From assembly GCA_900617975.1 (NCBI GenBank), contig UZAE01014037.1:1-17199 (forward strand): 17,199 bases of DNA, written 5' to 3'. Position numbers and translations under genes: made by a program. Positions 1 through 17,199 of this stretch are shown one piece after another. The notes under the pieces were generated by a model, which did no database searches, was not told where the DNA came from, and was given only the letters and a program-made list of their open reading frames with translations. Origin of the DNA: Rodentolepis nana. Its lineage: Eukaryota; Platyhelminthes; Cestoda; Cyclophyllidea; Hymenolepididae. Numbering within the stretch: the stretch's first letter is position 1; each line of letters opens with the position of its first letter.

Positions 1-1159
1 AGAGTCGACACCTGCACCAATGTTTGCTTGGTTTTCTATGTGTGACACATCAGTGAAGACTTGGAGCCATTAATCTGTAGGATAGTTGACATTGATTGTC
101 TCAAGGGCCAGTGAGAGCATTATGTTATGCACTTTCAGATTTGAAATTATATAACAATATTTGCTCATCATTTGTATCTCATTCCCATTGTACTGTCACT
201 TAATTAAAATAATCATTCAAGTGGTCTTTGACTGCAATCGCTTTTCAAAATCATTTTTTTGTGGATTAAGGCTGTCGTAACACTAAAATGCGCCAATAAA
301 CAATGTACCAAATGCCCGTAAATGAGAACAAAATGTAAATATACGCTAATTTCCAAGTCTGTCGCCATGCAATCTTTTGCAACTTTTGAAAATACGAGTC
401 CATTTATACAGGTAGAAATCAGAAAATTGCAAAGTTTGATAAACCGCTTCGTTTTGCATAAATATTTAAAAAAATACTTGATGTCCTAATTTTTATCAAG
501 AATGTATTAACGCCGATACATAAAAGTTAAAATACAGTGAGCATGTTCGATGTTAACTTTAGAGCAAAGTGAACTCACAGTATTGATATGAATAGACAAT
601 CGATAATCGAAGAGGTGTTATCCCATGATTGATCTTAATGCTCAATAAGTGGATACTCAACGAATAGGAAACGTTCGAATGGCTCGATTACCTAAATTGG
701 TACAACTGAACTTTAGACATCTAAAGGGAAAAGTGTGAATTTAATTTTCTGATTCTAACTGTAACTCTGTAAATATATGCCAAAAGGGTGTGAAATTATT
801 GAAAGTTTTCAATGTGTCGCTTCAAATTTGAATTTTTCTGTTGTCGATCAATAAATAAGCAAAATTTTAATTTTACTTTTCTTCCCATAACTTGATTAAT
901 AAAGTAAGGCTGTAATAGTATTTATTATTAGAACCCTAAAAAAGAAGAAAACTTTCTTTATTAGCTTATTTGACACCCTAATTATGACCTTGTTTTTTTT
1001 AACTCTACGTTACTTGGGTTATTATTACAGATAAAATGCACATTCTAATTTTGTATAAATTTGAGTAACTTATGTGGAATACCACGTCAGTATGGCTAAT
1101 GCAGTGGTTCGCCAAATATTCTGGATCATTCCTTACGTCCTGCCAATCCCTCCAGGAGG
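1..1159. other. AT-rich spacer, no gene seen
   Basis: No open reading frame of credible length or composition, no tRNA-like fold and no recognisable repeat was found here on either strand. Base composition is strongly AT-rich with many short A and T runs, as in the other spacers of this window. The upstream edge of dispersed repeat family Y may reach into the last ~100 bases, but similarity there is too weak to place. Confidence 0.5.
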
Positions 1160-1430: not shown

Positions 1431-1871
1431 GGTTGTTTGTATTTCATCTTGATGGTATTTACCAGCATCAAGTTTATGTTTGACTTAGTTTAGATGTACT
1501 TATGACAAAAAACTGAACTAGATTGGGGCTATTTTGAACTAGTTTGTACATCCATAAGCACTTGTGGAACCATGCATTTTGCAGATGGCGCGAAGTAAAT
1601 AGATTTTGTTTTGGTACATTTTCACTTAACAACAGTTCTTTTTGACATTTTCTCAAAGTTCGTTTTTTATGACCTCTCAATGAAGGTTCCAATTGGTTGT
1701 TGTCTGGTAAATTTCAGTTGCTTAAATATGGCCGGTGGGCTAGAATTGAGCCCTTGCAATTCCCAGACCTGCAACTGCGTTATTCATTACATGACTTATA
1801 AAATTTTTTAGACAACTATTTATTTACTATCAGTTCACGTACTATAAATGTAACATTTATATTTAAACATA
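1431..1871. other. Spacer, no gene seen
   Basis: Short ORFs occur on both strands (1474-1692 minus, 1611-1811 plus), but they overlap each other and carry no recognisable motif or protein-like composition. I see no RNA gene or mobile-element terminus. The stretch ends at the 5' end of Rz-SINE copy A. Confidence 0.45.
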
Positions 1872-1940
1872 GGGTATACGATAGACTTACCTCCACGTGG
1901 AGCAACTGGGCAACGATACTCATACGGCAAAAAAGTCTAT
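1872..1940 (+). ncRNA. Degenerate HDV-like ribozyme (copy A)
   Basis: Homologous to the ribozyme of copy B, with P2 intact (ATAGACTT at 1881-1888, AAGTCTAT at 1933-1940), the J1.1/4 sequence TGGGCAAC intact and the GGCAAA around the candidate catalytic C kept. P1 is broken: the 5' strand is GGGTATA, and the partner CACCC has become CAAC with a one-base loss. P3 has lost its closing T, and P4 has a deletion on its 5' side. I infer that it no longer cleaves. Confidence 0.7.
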
Positions 1941-2316
1941 TAACCGGCAGTTGACTTCTCACTTCAAACAACCACCACCCCCCACTGTATGTCATATTTG
2001 ACCCCTATCACAGTACTCATCTTACCCTATCTGAGCCTTTGTGTCTGTCTGTCTCTTTTACATCTGTGAATCACTCTTCTATTCTCCCTCCCTTATTCTT
2101 CTCACTTTGATGTTCCTCTTCCCCTTCTGTGAAGCCTGAAGTCAACTAAAGGGCTAATGATAACTATCAAAACGCCTGCCATTTGATATAAATAACATTT
2201 GGGAATCGCTCTTTTGTTCCTGCCCCCCCCCCCCACTTTTGTGACCTTGATGTTTCCTCCTCTGTGAAGCCCGAAGTCAACTAAAGGGCAAAACGCCTGC
2301 CATTTGATATAAAGAA
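1872..2316 (+). mobile_element. Rz-SINE copy A, decayed, with duplicated 3' part
   Basis: A non-autonomous retroelement of the same family as 3477-3803. It runs from GGGTATACGATAGACTTACC at 1872, through a C/T-rich middle, to the family 3' end GAAGCCTGAAGTCAACTAAA ... GCCTGCCATTTGATATAAAT near 2130-2194. A second, shortened copy of the 3' third follows directly (about 2202-2316). It begins at the GGGAATCGCTCTT-like segment, contains a 12-nt C run at 2223-2234, and repeats the GAAGCCCGAAGTCAACTAAA and GCCTGCCATTTGATATAAA blocks. This is either a partial tandem duplication or a 5'-truncated copy inserted at the tail of the first. No clean target-site duplication was found. The 5' ribozyme region is damaged in P1, P3 and P4. 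Confidence 0.85.
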
Positions 2317-3462: not shown

Positions 3463-3476
3463 ATATCCATAAAATG
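3463..3476 (+). repeat. Left target-site duplication of Rz-SINE copy B
   Basis: ATATCCATAAAATG here is repeated exactly (14/14) at 3804-3817, directly after the (AAAT)n tail. The duplication ends one base before GGGTGTG, the first strand of ribozyme helix P1, so the element starts where an HDV-like ribozyme would cut. Confidence 0.93.
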
Positions 3477-3547
3477 GGGTGTGCGATAGACTTACCTCCA
3501 CGTGGTGCACCCTGGGCAACGTATACTCATACGGCAAAAAAGTCTAT
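3477..3547 (+). ncRNA. HDV-like self-cleaving ribozyme (best copy)
   Basis: The 71 nt fit the nested double pseudoknot of hepatitis-delta-like ribozymes. P1: GGGTGT (3477-3482) pairs with GCACCC (3507-3512), with a possible seventh G-U pair. P2: ATAGACTT (3486-3493) pairs with AAGTCTAT (3540-3547), 8/8. P3: ACC (3494-3496) pairs with GGT (3504-3506), closing L3 TCCACGT, whose CC can form P1.1 with GG of J1.1/4. J1.1/4 is TGGGCAAC (3513-3520), matching the genomic HDV sequence at this position. P4: GTAT/ATAC (3521-3524 / 3529-3532) with loop ACTC. J4/2 is GGCAAA, whose C3535 is the candidate general-acid cytosine. Predicted cleavage is between 3476 and 3477. Family knowledge: HDV-like ribozymes sit at the 5' ends of several non-LTR retrotransposons, where they release the element RNA from a co-transcript. 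Activity here is inferred, not shown. Confidence 0.88.
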
Positions 3548-3803
3548 TAACAGGCAGTTGACTTCTGACTTCAAACTACCACGACCCCCCTGGCTGTCAT
3601 ATTCGACTACTTTCACAGTACTCACCTTACCTTTTTCTCTACCTTTGTGTCTGTCTGCCTCTTTTACATCTGTGAATCGCTCTTCTGTTCCCCACCCCTC
3701 GACTTTCTGCTACTTTGATGAACTTTCCCTCTGTGAAGCCCGAAGTCAGCTAAATGGCTAATGATATCTATCAAAACGCCTGCCATTTGAAATAAATAAA
3801 TAA
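3477..3803 (+). mobile_element. Rz-SINE copy B, complete non-autonomous retroelement
   Basis: The best-preserved member of the family, about 327 bp. In order: a 71-nt HDV-like ribozyme (3477-3547); a linker with GGCAGTTGACTTCTGACTTC; a C/T-rich middle of about 130 bp; then a 3' block with GAAGCCCGAAGTCAGCTAAA and AACGCCTGCCATTTG, ending in an (AAAT)n tail. Exact 14-bp target-site duplications flank it, so it inserted by target-primed reverse transcription and relied on an enzyme supplied by a LINE. No tRNA-type A box or B box and no 7SL or 5S similarity was seen, so this is not a standard pol III SINE. A 95-codon ORF (3474-3761) crosses ribozyme and linker and is not a real gene. Presence of a single precise insertion with a perfect duplication suggests it is younger than copies A, D and F. 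Confidence 0.93.
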
Positions 3804-3817
3804 ATATCCATAAAATG
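3804..3817 (+). repeat. Right target-site duplication of Rz-SINE copy B
   Basis: Exact repeat of 3463-3476. The first A residues could equally belong to the (AAAT)n tail, so the left edge is uncertain by up to three bases. Confidence 0.92.
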
Positions 3818-4438: not shown

Positions 4439-5026
4439 GTCCTGTTTTAGGGTGAAAACAAAGTCAGTAATTTCTTCCTTGAAATAATTACCTTTTCCTT
4501 TCTCATCCTCACTATCTGTACAATCTACAAACCCACGTGCGTTTAATCAAGCCTCATACTACGAGAGAAGCAGGTTAAGCTTAAAAAGTCAACATATTGC
4601 GTTGCCTATCTCTGAAGTTGCATCTCGCCACAGCAACATTTATCTTCAAATGGCAACTTTGCAGTAGAGCAGTAGAGTTGAAACTAAAATCATGTTCCTG
4701 AATTTGCCTTTTAAAAATTTAGATTGCGCATAACAATATTCAGGCAATGGGGGAGATTTGCTTAAAATGGTAAAAAAGAGGAAACGTTTATTGAAAACTC
4801 ACTTTAAATATTGGTAAATAAGTGGAGGAGTTGATTAAAATAGGCTTTAAAAGCTCTTATCTATTTAATCGTAGCGAATAGAGATTATGGCTCCCATTGA
4901 AAATGAAAGTAGAATTTGCAACGAACTGCTGCACGAATACGCGTTGACTCTACAATCAAATATTAAATGACAGCTGGAATTAGCTAATTAGCCTGAACGA
5001 TATTCAAAGAGGAAGCAGACATAGGG
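4439..5026. other. AT-rich spacer, no gene seen
   Basis: No ORF of note, no RNA fold and no recognisable element terminus on either strand. AT-rich, with several AAAATGG or TTTAAAA runs. Confidence 0.45.
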
Positions 5027-5164: not shown

Positions 5165-5189
5165 GAGTACTGAAGTCAACTGCCAAGTT

Positions 5190-5259
5190 ACAGACTTTTC
5201 CCAGCATGAGTATACGTTGTTCAAAGTGCAACACGTGGAGGTAAGTTCGGCGCACACCT
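5190..5259 (-). ncRNA. Degenerate HDV-like ribozyme, inverted (copy F)
   Basis: On the minus strand this reads AGGTGTG at 5259-5253, then GAACTTACCTCCACGTG and GTATACTCATGC, ending in AAGTCTGT at 5197-5190. P1 is preserved with changed bases: AGGTGTG pairs with TGCACTT, the terminal G-C of copy B having become A-U and the next pair G-U. P4 survives with one G-U wobble. J1.1/4 has changed (GAACAAC), P2 has mismatches and the candidate catalytic C is lost (GGGAAA for GGCAAA). I infer that it is inactive, but the compensated P1 supports the fold. Confidence 0.75.
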
Positions 5260-5260
5260 C

Positions 5261-5862
5261 TCCAAAGCAATAATTCTTTCGGACTCGCAGTCAGCAGTAA
5301 ATTCAATTGGAAGCAGAGAACCACCCTAAACAGCCGAGATACATGAACGTAAAAAACTGTATCAGTTACTGTGAGAATAAAAAACAAAACAGTAGTTCAT
5401 CAATGGATCCCCAGACATTGTGACATCATAGGCAATGAGCTTGCTGACTTACTTGATGAGAAGGACACCAAAGTGTTGCAAGGCATAGACTGGCCGATGT
5501 CTTTCCACACAATGAAGACCTTAATCAGGAGAGAATTCAAGACTTCAAGAAGCAACGAACTTAAACTCGAACATAGCCGAATGGCTAAGGAACAAAGCTG
5601 TTGCAGATTTTAGACTGCGTAATGGACACGATTGCCTGTCAAAGTACCTACACATAACAGGAGTATTGCTCAACCATCATGTCCCCTATGTGACTTGCAA
5701 GAGGATATTGAGAGGACCCACCTGATTCGGTGCCCAGACCTAAAGACAACGAAAGAAACCCAGAGATACTGGGAAGCGAGAAGTCAACTACTGTTCACTA
5801 TCCTAAAGCCTATATATATATGCTCTACTCCCCCCCTGGTAAAATCTGAAATAAATAAATAA
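5261..5862 (+). pseudogene. Broken RNase H domain and CCHC finger of a non-LTR retrotransposon ORF2
   Basis: Three frames carry successive pieces of one polypeptide end. Frame one (5261-5326) reads SKAIILSDSQSAV, the RNase H strand with a catalytic Asp (codon 5282-5284), then stops at TAA 5327-5329. Frame two (5371-5613) reads HQWIPRHCDIIGNELADLL, the family's WIPGHC...GNE.AD motif with Gly changed to Arg. Frame three (to 5862) holds CPLCDLQEDIERTHLIRC, a C-x2-C-x9-H-x3-C finger, and RYWEARSQL, a C-terminal motif seen with RNase H-bearing LINE ORF2 proteins. The reverse transcriptase and endonuclease domains are missing because the copy is 5'-truncated. At least two frameshifts and a stop make it a pseudogene. 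The intact parent would be an I/Jockey/LOA-type element; which clade I cannot say. Confidence 0.85.
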
Positions 5863-5899
5863 ATAAACATCATAAGGCCTGCAATTCGATATACTAATA

Positions 5900-8075: not shown

Positions 8076-8684
8076 TTACCTACTGCGTGAATTAACAGAT
8101 GTGTCATCGGGTATTCTCTTGATAACAACAGCAGGTTTCGCACGACCTGAGGCATAGGAAGCTGGGTTCGTTACGGAGAAGTGAGTTTCCGAGTTCTTCG
8201 GAGTGTTCATAAGAGAAGTGAATGCGAGAAACGCGGGAAGAATGCAGAAAATGGTGTTCGCTAGAGATATACCCGCAAGAGTGATGTACTCTTTTCCAGT
8301 AAATACCAACATAACACTCGAACTGACAACACAGAGAAGGAATTGGACGACATCTACAGTTAGCATTAACCAATTCATGAAGTAAGCAGCACGTTTTGAA
8401 ACCAAGGAACGGACAATCATAATAAGGTGGAGAACAATTGCTACAATTCCTACGGCAATGCCGAAGTAACCAAATAAAAAATTGGGCTTTGGTGGGTCAT
8501 TAGGAACGCCTTGATAAATGAGGTAACCACCGATTGTTAGTGGCAAGAGGCTGTGGAGAAAGATCAGAATAGTATCAGCATTCCGATGAACGTGGCGGCG
8601 AAGTTTAGGGAACTTCTTGGGTTTTTTACCATTCGCTTTGTATTTGGGTGTCACATCCTTCGTATTCTTCTTACCAAGACCCAT
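8076..8684 (-). CDS. Four-transmembrane-helix protein, family not recognised
   Basis: Intronless ORF of 202 codons from ATG 8684 in a good context (AAAATGG). The frame stays open about 90 nt further upstream to a TAG but with no earlier ATG, and a GTG at 8720 is not a likely animal start. Residues 1-34 are very basic (KK, KPKK, KLRRHVHR) and should face the cytosol. Hydrophobic segments at about 37-58, 70-93, 102-127 and 134-158 predict four membrane helices with both ends inside. The first outer loop holds a Pro-rich stretch (NDPPKPN, 62-68). The tail (159-202) is polar with Ser/Thr and basic residues and no lipidation or ER-retrieval motif. It lacks the CCG motif and large Cys-rich loop of tetraspanins. 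An endomembrane or plasma-membrane protein is likely; function is unknown. The intact frame and the AATAAA just downstream suggest a real gene, possibly retroposed given the absence of introns. Confidence 0.8.
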   Translation of the reverse strand: MGLGKKNTKDVTPKYKANGKKPKKFPKLRRHVHRNADTILIFLHSLLPLTIGGYLIYQGVPNDPPKPNFLFGYFGIAVGIVAIVLHLIMIVRSLVSKRAAYFMNWLMLTVDVVQFLLCVVSSSVMLVFTGKEYITLAGISLANTIFCILPAFLAFTSLMNTPKNSETHFSVTNPASYASGRAKPAVVIKRIPDDTSVNSRSR

Positions 8685-8720
8685 TTTGAGTGCGTAGAAG
8701 AGTGAGAAGAGAGAGATCAC

Positions 8721-9409: not shown

Positions 9410-9868
9410 ATCATTAACCCCTGTTAAACCTAATCCCCCATCCTGATCATGAGTAGCTCCCTGCGTGTACACTTTATCCGCAATATACTTACTGAATAAA
9501 CGTGCTCCGTGCTACACGTCTGTTTCCTTTATAGCTTTGCAATAGCTTAGCTGGTTCTGGGAGTCTAGCTAGATGTTGGAGGATCTGCCATAGAGATTAC
9601 TGAGTCAATCAGGCTTTACTAAGGTAGCAATCCGCTACAAAACTTTCGCCCAATGGCCCTCAAAGCTAAGCTTAGACTGCAAATNCTATAGCTAAACTGG
9701 TTCCGGGAGTCTAGCTAGATGTTGGAGAATCTGCCACAGAGATTTCTGAGTTAGTCAGGCTTTACTAGAGTAGCAAAGAGATACTGAGTCAATCAGGCTT
9801 TACTAAGGTAGCAATCCGCTACAAAACTTTCGCCCAATGGCCCTCAAAGCTAAGCTTAGACTGCAAAT
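9410..9868 (+). repeat. Dispersed repeat family Y, copy 2, with internal tandem duplication
   Basis: Related to 1160-1430 (shared AGCTCCCTGC, ACGTCTGTTT, CTTTATAGC, ATCTGCCATAGAG and GTAGCAATCC blocks). The 3' half is present twice: 9541-9684 and 9686-9868. The stretch 9599-9684 is identical to 9783-9868 over 86 bp, while the preceding parts (9541-9598 and 9688-9760) are diverged. The repeat can fold a small hairpin, GTAGC-loop-GCTAC. An N at 9685 lies exactly at the unit junction. The upstream ORF at 9258-9446 has no recognisable domain. Confidence 0.7.
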
Positions 9869-10898: not shown

Positions 10899-10911
10899 TA
10901 AACACAATTCT
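10899..10911 (+). repeat. Left target-site duplication of Rz-SINE copy C
   Basis: TAAACACAATTCT, matching TAAACGCTATTCA at 11196-11208 at 10 of 13 positions. It ends directly before GGGTGTG of the ribozyme, as in copy B. Confidence 0.65.
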
Positions 10912-10982
10912 GGGTGTGCAGTAGACTTACCTCCACGAGGTGCACCATAGGCAACGTATACTCATACGGCAAAGAAGTCTAT
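10912..10982 (+). ncRNA. HDV-like ribozyme of copy C, probably impaired
   Basis: The same 71-nt length as copy B. P2 is kept with one G-U wobble (GTAGACTT/AAGTCTAT), P3 ACC/GGT and P4 GTAT/ATAC are intact, and GGCAAA is kept. Two core changes are likely to hurt: the last base of the P1 3' strand is A instead of C (a G-A mismatch next to the cleavage site), and J1.1/4 reads TAGGCAAC, which weakens P1.1. Confidence 0.82.
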
Positions 10983-11195
10983 TAACCAGCAATTGATTTT
11001 TGACTTCACACTACCATGACCAGACTGCACGCAATATTTCATCACTTCGCTGTACTCACTTTACCTTACCTGGTTCTCAACCTTTTGTCTGTCTCTTGTT
11101 GTGCCTTTGATGCTCCTCCCTCTGTGAAGTTCGAAGTAAGCTAATGGGCTAATGATAATTTTCAAAACGCCTGTAATTTGAAATAAATAAATAAA
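10912..11195 (+). mobile_element. Rz-SINE copy C, full-length but shortened in the middle
   Basis: About 284 bp, with the ribozyme at 10912-10982, the C/T-rich middle, GAAGTTCGAAGTAAGCTAAT, CGCCTGTAATTTG and an (AAAT)n tail. It is about 43 bp shorter than copy B, mostly through losses in the C/T-rich middle. Imperfect 13-bp target-site duplications flank it. It interrupts repeat family X copy 3. Confidence 0.9.
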
Positions 11196-14567: not shown

Positions 14568-14883
14568 TCAAATGGCAGGCGTTTTAATAGTTATCGTTAG
14601 CCCTTTAGTTGGCTTCGGGTTTCACAGAGAGGAGGAGGAACATCAAAGTTGCAAAAAGTCAGGAGGAGGGAACAGAAGGGCGATTCAAAGATGTAAAAGC
14701 GACAAACAGACACAAAGGCAGAGAAAAAAGAGAGGTGAGTACTGTGGAAGTGGTAGAATATGACATAGTGTGGGGTGATGGTAGCTTGAAGTCAGAAGTC
14801 AACTGCCGGTTAATTGACTTTTTTGCCATATGAGTATACGTTGTCCAGGGTGCACCGCGTGAAGGTAAGTCTATCGCACACCC
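14568..14883 (-). mobile_element. Rz-SINE copy D, minus strand, tail lost
   Basis: Read on the minus strand it begins GGGTGTGCGATAGACTTACC at 14883, passes through GGCAGTTGACTTCTGACTTC and the C/T-rich middle, and ends GAAGCCAACTAAAGGGCTAA ... CGCCTGCCATTTGA at about 14568. The (AAAT)n tail is absent and no target-site duplication is clear, so the 3' edge is truncated or eroded. Most differences from copy B are transitions. Plus-strand ORFs at 14479-14833 are antisense readings of this element. Confidence 0.9.
14813..14883 (-). ncRNA. HDV-like ribozyme of copy D
   Basis: Again 71 nt. P1 is intact (GGGTGTG with TGCACCC), P3 ACC/GGT is intact, and P4 is GTAT/ATAT with a G-U wobble replacing G-C. 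GGCAAA is kept. Changes are one mismatch in P2 (AAGTCAAT), L3 TTCACGC and J1.1/4 TGGACAAC. It may retain weak activity. The strand is the same as that of the oxidase gene upstream. Confidence 0.8.
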
Positions 14884-15771
14884 GTAAATGTTTGCCTAAT
14901 ATATTCGGTATTAAGCAAAATATATATCACTTTCCCGCCTGTCAACAAGCTTTGTTTTTCACAGATGGCGGTGACCCAGAATAGATTGCAAGCTTAATTG
15001 TTGAGTTAACTTAAACAAAGGCCGCTTCTTATTGAAAGTGACCGGTCTCAGTGACTAGTCATTAGCCCAGACCCGAATAGTCAACTCTTATTGACAGAAA
15101 ATGAAGCCGCACCACCAATACGATAGCCCGGGTGCGAGCACAGAAATTCATTGAGCAGTGATCTAGCTCATTTTGGATGAAACCCGCCGGCTTCATTCGG
15201 GTGTACCAGATTTGCGGCTCGACCCGCAACCATCCTTCTTGGGAGTATGCTTTTTTTCTGACTGCTAATGTCGGATTATCATTATAAATAAGCCAACAAA
15301 CCTCACCGTGAACATCGTAGAAATTGAAAGCGATTAACTATTTGTACAAACCCCACACACCTCCCCTTCCCCCCCCCAACCCCCGGCCCCTTCGTGGCCA
15401 ATAAAATAAGAGCTCGTTCATAAATATAAAAGAACTAACTGCATTTGAATTATGAACAACAAGAGATAGACGCAAACATTACTTCAAAAGGACAACGTTT
15501 GCAAGATATATATATAGAATACAGCGTCTAAATTAGCATCCATAACCAGCCAAAATGAATAAAGAAGGTGACAAAATTAATATTTACAGAAGAACAAACG
15601 AATTTGTTAAAGTAGGAGAAAGCTATAAGAGACAGGAAATCGCTAAGAAAGCAAGCCAAAATAAGGGAGAGAGAGGAAATGCTGACAAAGAAGACGCACG
15701 AAATGAGTGAACACAACACCAAAATTTGTTATATAAAAAGAGGGAATAGTAGAGCAATCGAACGGTCAGGC
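14884..15771. other. Region downstream of the oxidase gene, no other gene
   Basis: Contains the presumed 3' UTR of the minus-strand oxidase near its right end. No canonical AATAAA on the minus strand was found close to the stop. A C-rich tract lies at about 15361-15388. Short ORFs here lack recognisable features. Confidence 0.4.
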
Positions 15772-16558: not shown

Positions 16559-17165
16559 CTTTGTTAGAAAGAGAACTGAGTTTAAATCGTCCATCGATTA
16601 CTGGCCTTTATTCTTTAGGCTAGAGAGAAGTGACTCGAATATCTTCAAATGTGCATAACTTAGAGCCAAACTAACGTGTCTGAGGGAATCATTTTTGACT
16701 TTCTTTCATCTCTGAGTTTGTCCGTTTACGACATAGAACGATCTAATCAATCTTAATGTCTCAATTGCTATCGTTTTTTTTAAAATTGTTTACCGCGTTG
16801 AAAACCGTGTTAGTGCCGAAGCTCCAACTGCAGTTTTTTTTTCAACCAAATACTCTACACTACAGCCATGATGACGAAAGCAGCACAAAATCTCAAGCTG
16901 TAAAGTTGTGCACCTTAAGTTGTGTGCCTCCCTGTAAAAAGGGCTTTATAATAAAGCGAGCGCCAGTGACTGTGGCCTAGCACTCATGAAAAACGACAAC
17001 CGGTTCAATTATCTGCCGAATTGCGCTCTAGGAAATTCGGACTTTTAAAACCGAAATCTCCATTCTCCCAATAGATCTAAACACATGCAGTGTGTGCCTA
17101 ACGTTTACCTGGTGAATGCGAAAAAAGCCATTTAATACTTAATTTGATTTATGAAGTCATTTCTG
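16559..17165. other. Upstream intron of the oxidase gene (inferred)
   Basis: No further exon of the oxidase was recognised on the minus strand up to the window edge, so this is most likely intron. The plus-strand ORF at 16756-16980 has no recognisable motif. Confidence 0.4.
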
Positions 17166-17199
17166 GGGTGTGCGATAGACTTACCTCCACGTGGTGCAC
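17166..17199 (+). mobile_element. Rz-SINE copy E, start only, cut by the window edge
   Basis: The final 34 nt are identical to the first 34 nt of copy B (GGGTGTGCGATAGACTTACC then TCCACGTGGTGCAC), covering ribozyme P1, P2 and P3 5' strands and L3. As in copy B it is preceded by a G. The element is antisense to the oxidase gene and probably lies within one of its introns. Perfect identity over this stretch suggests a young copy. Confidence 0.85.

Follow-up and report, generated by a model that had tools for sequence, protein, structure and literature searches.

The closest described systems, cited here from parts of the respective papers, join a long retroelement to a short one. In trypanosomatids, the L1Tc/NARTc, ingi/RIME and SIDER groups comprise a LINE with an APE endonuclease, a reverse transcriptase (RT) and an RNase H, together with a short partner (PMC4035085). 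L1Tc and NARTc start with the same 77-nt HDV-like ribozyme, and the ends of the long element are found in the short one (PMC4035085). In Drosophila, the R2 SIDE and the R2/R1 hybrid SIDE have a ribozyme 5' end and the 3' end of the mobilising element; these SIDEs sit in rRNA genes and were described as rare (PMC3414825). Self-cleavage at the 5' junction was also reported for the LINEs R4, Dong, Baggins, L1Tc and RTE, and planarian R2 is among the elements with HDV-like ribozymes (PMC3774820), so that HDV-like ribozymes had already been described in flatworms. For tapeworms, the titles and abstracts consulted on such elements yielded no case. Hymenolepis and ribozyme were not found together in the open-access literature, most subscription journals lying outside the search, and the main text of the H. 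microstoma genome paper, in the part consulted, mentions neither a ribozyme nor a SINE (PMC7653826).

The DNA analysed here is a stretch of 17,199 nt from Rodentolepis nana (contig UZAE01014037.1, hereafter the window). An earlier note, made from its sequence alone, had described an HDV-like ribozyme at the 5' end of a short retroelement family lacking a tRNA-like promoter. That interpretation is supported overall, with the corrections given below.

The ribozyme motif

The motif spans positions 3476–3547 of the forward strand (72 nt). All five helices listed in the earlier note were found, both in the sequence and in the alignment of copies, with the extents given in Table 1; they form a nested double pseudoknot P1-P2-P3-P1.1-P4. 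The candidate catalytic C3535 precedes the 3' strand of P2, and we take its role from the HDV ribozyme literature. HDV ribozymes carry a G.U wobble at the cleavage site, and the first pair of P1, G3476.U3513, is presumably the HDV-type pair at the predicted site. The L3 loop reads UCCACGU and retains, at 3497 and 3502, the positions of the U..G pair described for L3 of HDV-like ribozymes (PMC3774820, in part).

Table 1. Positions of the ribozyme elements, the SINE copies and the LINE pieces in the window.
Feature	Position	Strand	Remarks
P1	3476-3482 / 3507-3513	+	7 bp; first pair G3476.U3513, last pair U3482.G3507
P2	3486-3493 / 3540-3547	+	8/8 bp
P3	3494-3496 / 3504-3506	+	3494-3506 including L3
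P1.1	C3498, C3499 with G3515, G3514	+	CC/GG; C3498 and C3499 are L3 bases
P4 hairpin	3520-3524 / 3529-3533 (3520-3533)	+	5 bp
Candidate catalytic C	3535	+	Place relative to P4 and P2 in Rfam alignments
5' TSD copy (ATATCCATAAAAT)	3463-3475	+	14-nt exact match to 3804-3817
SINE-like non-autonomous retroelement, full length, AATAAATAAATAA tail at end	3476-3803	+	TSD, repeat alignment
Stretch after ribozyme, still alignable to LINE 5' UTR, less conserved	3548-3572	+	8/25 columns differ
SINE-specific middle	3573-3741	+	No match to LINE copy L063 (blastn, E 1e-4)
LINE-like 3' end and tail	3742-3805	+	81.8% to L063; consensus 56/65
3' TSD copy	3804-3817	+	Exact match to 5' flank
Second SINE copy, decayed	1871-2195	+	Part of 3' half repeated downstream to ~2318
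Third SINE copy	10911-11195	+	Ribozyme 39.4 bits
Fourth SINE copy	14568-14884	-	Ribozyme 34.0 bits
Fifth SINE copy, cut by window end	17165-17199	+	Begins GGGG
LINE 3' part, RNase H region to AAATAAATAAAT tail	5258-5868	+	75% to L063 over 5258-5793
LINE fragment	7-120	-	92% to L063
Decayed ribozyme head, inverted, abutting LINE 3' piece	5172-5258	-	

The earlier note had named covariance-model searches of the locus and of the genome as checks, and both returned HDV-like matches. In the Rfam search of the 17-kb window, RF02682 (HDV-F-prausnitzii) matched 3478–3547 with 44.5 bits and E 1.5e-5, only 0.5 bits over its gathering score of 44; in this alignment the register of P1 was shifted, starting from 3478, with one non-standard pair. 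RF00094 (HDV ribozyme) matched 3474–3547 with 36.7 bits and E 0.033, under its gathering score of 50, and its P1 began at G3476 paired with U3513, with no non-standard pair. Matches to RF02682 below the cut-off were located at 10913–10982 (+) and 14882–14813 (-), with a weak one at 1873–1940 (+). The genome search with RF02682, in which 61 of 25212 first-look candidates were scored, gave 59 places at E ≤ 0.001, of which 37 passed the cut-off, the best with 54.5 bits, and the same search of 14 control genomes gave 0 positives. All 20 of the 59 places that were inspected proved to be variants of this one family (mosaic heads in at least two), so no independent ribozyme lineage was obtained.

A repeat with a 5' end that fits the motif by chance might give a narrow pass such as the 0.5 bits in the window, and the minimum-energy nested fold is no better than that of shuffled sequences (z -0.31). 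The ordinary energy is expected, since a nested fold cannot represent the double pseudoknot. The E value of the window match and the 37 genomic places over the cut-off argue against such a coincidence, as does the agreement of the cleavage position in the RF00094 alignment with the ends defined by target-site duplications (TSDs; see below). Moreover, a motif descriptor, composed after the motif had been seen, found one place on both strands of the window and none in 60 one-strand Markov-1 windows. We consider chance resemblance extremely improbable and regard the HDV-like ribozyme motif at 3476–3547 as confirmed.

Start of the element and its copies

Ribozyme and element start at G3476, and cleavage is predicted between U3475 and G3476. 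The earlier note had taken the ribozyme, from 3477, to be the exact 5' end of a ~330-bp family; the 5'-end position is borne out by Rfam, the TSDs and the genome-wide 5' ends, and the first base is not. Position 3476 is preferred to 3477 because of the RF00094 register, in which P1 starts at G3476, the TSDs of SINE and LINE copies, and the first G of heads across the genome.

The TSDs were followed in 35 distinct SINE copies of full length; most had been taken as the closest matches to the window copy, and the others came from loci retrieved for the LINE. In 20 of them the 5' and 3' flanks share an exact match of 9 nt or more, which ended within 1 nt of GGGTG in 16, as against 0.25% of 1190 mismatched pairings. 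Fourteen of these 16 have an extra G between the duplication and GGGTG, i.e. the TSD lies directly before GGGG, and in the other two (the window copy and L025) the extra G also equals the next flank base. For the window copy, we assign the fourteenth matching base, G3476, to the element as its first G, which by coincidence equals the next base of the flank. We must also note what speaks against an exact 5' end: 15 of the 35 copies had no 9-nt flank match, and in 4 further copies the match ended 2–7 nt off the head.

Among the LINE copies, a TSD of 13–15 nt directly abuts GGGG in 4 of 9, the duplication being shorter, displaced or not clear in the other 5. In 17 of 21 aligned LINE 5' ends (20 of 41 matches, among the best and 5'-complete, plus the query L063; L095–L097 were added to the set later), GGGG stands exactly where the flanks turn unrelated; L067 and L080 have another base at that point, and L082 and L085 have other sequence. 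Across the genome, 2687 of the 3099 heads with the next 31 bases intact read GGGGTGYGCG followed by the 22-nt core, and 412 have another first base. Since the TSDs end just before GGGG in SINE and LINE copies, the predicted cleavage site coincides exactly with the 5' end of the element.

The 22-nt core ATAGACTTACCTCCACGTGGTG has 6699 exact matches in 107 Mb, and its reversed control has 0; these counts refer to heads and not to elements, because mosaic copies contain several cores. The full 72 nt of the window ribozyme recur unchanged at 292 places, and the exact LINE-type 3' half occurs at 123. The inserts are spread over many contigs, with unrelated flanks and differing TSDs. Exact DNA scans of the viral and prokaryote collections gave 0 places.

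In the mosaic heads (L034:817-1906, L085, L126–L130), ribozyme halves of ~40 nt, spanning roughly positions 1–42 or 30–72, are repeated and mixed, and in L129 LINE-type and SINE-type halves lie side by side. L034, L128 and L130 have the same arrangement and L126 and L127 another, so that mosaic heads seem to be propagated as such. They look as if RNA or cDNA pieces had repeatedly been joined at the 5' end. Among L126–L130, only L129 was matched by Rfam.

Some further observations concern single copies and the rest of the window. The SINE copy at L002:1-840 contains about a dozen degenerate repeats, each of ~40 nt, of the stretch just after the ribozyme, as well as 83-nt repeats in its pyrimidine-rich middle. 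An ATG frame at 3474–3761 in the window was considered and given no meaning. The open frame at 8076–8720 (-) encodes 214 aa with hydrophobic stretches and no Pfam match, and is possibly an exon of a host gene. At 9542–9868, two overlapping pairs of direct repeats of 87–89 nt lie 184 and 146 bases apart, with 100% and 89% identity.

The partner LINE and the shared ends

The earlier note had described a short non-autonomous family. The ~330-bp repeat is such a family, and it does not stand alone: a ribozyme-headed LINE is its long partner. Judged by sequence, this LINE is abundant, bears an RNase H and has the same predicted ribozyme at its own 5' end and the 3' end of the SINE. It was reached from an RNase H-like fragment at 5371–5613 of the window, which itself had no match in the Pfam search; all 150 scored candidates matched it (1295 first-look candidates).

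In the LINE copy L063, the ribozyme lies at 4467–4538 and endonuclease coding begins at 4578 (PF14529, Exo_endo_phos_2, E 3.9e-19), with an RNase H match (PF00075, E 1.6e-15); both domains were also found in L065. L063 is interrupted by stops and frame changes. The Pfam search found no RT match in its pieces; related R. nana proteins, e.g. P0030, do have one (PF00078). The order endonuclease-RT-RNase H was therefore assembled from several copies. The LINE 5' consensus, made without loci L082, L085 and L096, has an ATG 104 nt after its start; judged by eye, this ATG shares its frame with the endonuclease. Open frames of 824–1265 aa near RNase H matches were rejected as coding, because the four longest (L059–L062) are open in three frames at once through runs of N of ~2.0–3.4 kb.

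Rfam matched an HDV family at E ≤ 0.1 in 14 of 20 LINE 5' loci and found none in 6 (20 of 23 loci were used; L076, L085, L096 and L063 were left out). Against a ribozyme reading of these heads, none of the 20 reaches the gathering score, the best having 40.2 bits against 44.

Scoring of 7998 candidates for relatives of the LINE protein gave 142 matches, of which 120 are listed. The best of these are R. nana proteins; among the matches listed, named Hymenolepis microstoma proteins are 63–66% identical and proteins of spiders, a cockroach and psyllids about 29–47%. Eight loci on viral contigs, matched at 25–35% in a protein-profile scan and mostly by the RNase H part of the query, were not counted as relatives.

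Two observations concern the shape of single LINE copies. At 5172–5868 of the window, the inverted head is joined at its outer end to the LINE 3' piece, resembling a twin-priming 5' inversion; this would be expected if the cDNA had reached the 5' end of the RNA and had then been joined inverted; no clear duplication was found for this insert. Five copies (C2269, C2522, C3365, C3879 and C4111) have only ~1.5–2.0 kb from head to RNase H, and two (C3413 and C4088) have ~2.8–2.9 kb. The five short ones are read as internal deletions, a possible route to short partners.

The two elements were compared through their consensus sequences. LINE and SINE show 5 differences in the 72 ribozyme positions and 8 in the 25 alignment columns that follow (Fisher 0.0037, or 0.022 when gap columns are omitted). 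Those within the ribozyme fall at position 7, where a U.G pair becomes C-G and the P1 pair is kept, at position 41 in J1.1/4, at two loop bases of P4 and at the innermost P4 pair; P1, P2, P3 and P1.1 all remain paired. The innermost P4 pair is U-U in the LINE consensus, which, like the changed J1.1/4 base, speaks against the ribozyme reading. At the 3' end, involving the last ~63 nt of the window copy, 56 of 65 positions are identical. A SINE-like 3' end, 79–87% identical, follows the RNase H match on the same strand after 242–355 nt in 30 of 38 LINE loci (two of which, L043 and L063, are the same genomic copy); against a shared 3' end, 8 of the 38 lack it. Taken together, these alignments show 5' and 3' ends common to LINE and SINE. 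The SINE-specific middle had no match in L063, and other LINE copies could hold it, since L063 is itself incomplete. A stem-loop is predicted before the AATAAATAAA tail, at 3745–3790 in the SINE and in the LINE 3' ends, and its shape differs between the two; such stem-loops are a possible recognition site.

The earlier note had named, beforehand, missing P1/P2 covariation across copies as a point against the ribozyme, and on this point the result did not favour it. In an alignment of 64 ribozyme copies, only 2 cells showed a two-sided change, a number reached by 403 of 500 shuffles, and all other covariation measures were at or below the shuffle means. The copies were nevertheless paired in 91.8% of structure cells, compared with 29–50% when the structure was slid along the alignment; the slid structures had more two-sided changes (4–9 pairs vs 2) and far fewer paired cells. 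The alignment left out duplicate sequences and copies that contain N or are truncated at a locus end; some of its P2 columns are off by one where a copy has five A's and not six, and 12 cells are gaps. The copies are young (mean pairwise divergence 4.5% in 21 good SINE copies) and decay independently after insertion, so we read the absent covariation as uninformative, of little power, and not as support.

The absence of covariation would also suit a vestigial ribozyme, inherited and no longer cutting, with the 5' ends of copies set by a promoter and the extra G derived from the mRNA cap. For other LINEs, caps are a known source of untemplated G. Several results argue against this explanation. 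Of the stretches compared between LINE and SINE, the head is the most conserved (67/72, vs 56/65 at the 3' end), and the five changes within it keep P1, P2, P3 and P1.1 paired, with U.G turned into C-G in P1. Moreover, the first G found in most genomic heads completes the HDV-type G.U pair, and 292 places match the window ribozyme over its whole length. We regard a vestigial ribozyme as quite improbable. From sequence, the ribozyme is probably working in the copies that spread, where cleavage is predicted.

Transcription, life cycle and known systems

The earlier note's statement that a tRNA-like promoter is lacking held. No A or B box was found in the SINE or LINE head, and the SINE has no pair of them placed to start a full-length transcript; along the 329 positions of the SINE there are only one-mismatch lookalikes at 126 (B), 272 (A) and 294 (B), which lie too far 3'. 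Neither a tRNA gene nor a small-RNA gene or Pol III head was found. The element thus has no tRNA-, 7SL- or 5S-derived head with Pol III A and B boxes, by which classical SINEs are recognised. Release from read-through transcripts would fit this lack of a usable Pol III promoter.

We consider it very probable that the HDV-like ribozyme at the 5' end of the SINE and of its partner LINE frees the RNA of the element from host transcripts, and that the LINE protein mobilises the SINE. Within this explanation we infer self-cleavage, dependence on host transcripts and mobilisation by the LINE. An element would lie inside a longer transcript (an intron, a UTR or a read-through RNA) in which its head would fold. 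The ribozyme would most likely cut before G3476 and yield an RNA with the exact 5' end of the element; the LINE, with its endonuclease, reverse transcriptase and RNase H, would use the same device. The LINE protein would most likely recognise the 3' end common to the SINE, and reverse transcription from the nicked target to the 5' end of the RNA would give an insert again headed by the ribozyme. New inserts would leave TSDs of 10–15 nt abutting ribozyme nucleotide 1. A self-cutting head would explain how copies without a promoter of their own have correct front ends.

A promoter may instead reside in the head, which would then be dual-purpose, with an internal promoter that starts transcription at the first base or close to it, and a ribozyme that serves for trimming or as a secondary function. 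Such a promoter would be inherited by every copy, and thousands of copies in any context need transcription. There is a precedent in trypanosomatids, where Pr77 of L1Tc/NARTc was reported, in the part of the paper cited, as both a promoter and an HDV-like ribozyme (PMC4035085). The missing A and B boxes in both heads, the distant lookalikes and the lack of a tRNA gene weigh against it, these tests being blind to Pol II downstream promoters. The conservation of the head is explained by helices and loops without extra signals, which is still compatible with a promoter. We think a dual-purpose head unlikely on balance, and it is compatible with ribozyme cutting. Our preferred explanation remains release from host transcripts by the ribozyme. 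Extended further, and only tentatively, R. nana may harbour a promoterless animal LINE/SINE system in which each new copy is excised by its ribozyme from host transcripts; self-cleaving RNAs would then number several thousand in this compact genome and cut a sizeable share of host introns and UTRs. A further mosaic lineage, its heads put together from ~40-nt halves of LINE and SINE type, would mark the processed 5' end as a hot spot of RNA joining in reverse transcription.

With so many copies at hand, one can ask how SINEs lacking a promoter come to be transcribed, whether active intronic ribozymes are harmful to the genes of the host, and in what way cleavage by the ribozyme determines the 5' junction in target-primed reverse transcription.

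In R. nana, the SINE combines a ribozyme 5' end with a 3' end common to a LINE of the same genome, and TSDs abut the ribozyme start. In plan, the pair is like L1Tc/NARTc as described in the cited part of that work, a ribozyme 5' end being common to the long and the short element. In contrast to L1Tc/NARTc, its host is an animal, the middle of the SINE has no match in the single LINE copy compared, and the head has given no evidence of a promoter. The SINE also resembles the R2 SIDE, as far as it is described in the cited part, in joining a ribozyme head to a LINE 3' end; unlike the R2 SIDE, its inserts are dispersed over many contigs with differing TSDs, and its heads number thousands. The LINE has an Exo_endo_phos_2 endonuclease and unrelated flanks, and not the restriction-like endonuclease and 28S target of the R2 clade. 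It differs from R4, Dong, Baggins and RTE, with endonuclease coding ~100 nt after the ribozyme start. Like the SINEs headed by tRNA, 7SL or 5S sequences, the R. nana SINE is short and non-autonomous and has a LINE-like 3' end; unlike them, it has no Pol III head or small-RNA gene. By these comparisons, the R. nana pair appears to belong to the known type of L1Tc/NARTc and R2/SIDE, its distinguishing features being the dispersed, very high copy number, a SINE middle unmatched in the one LINE copy compared, and the mosaic heads. If this is true, the design of L1Tc/NARTc would extend to a parasitic flatworm, in copies numerous enough to form a conspicuous part of its genome.
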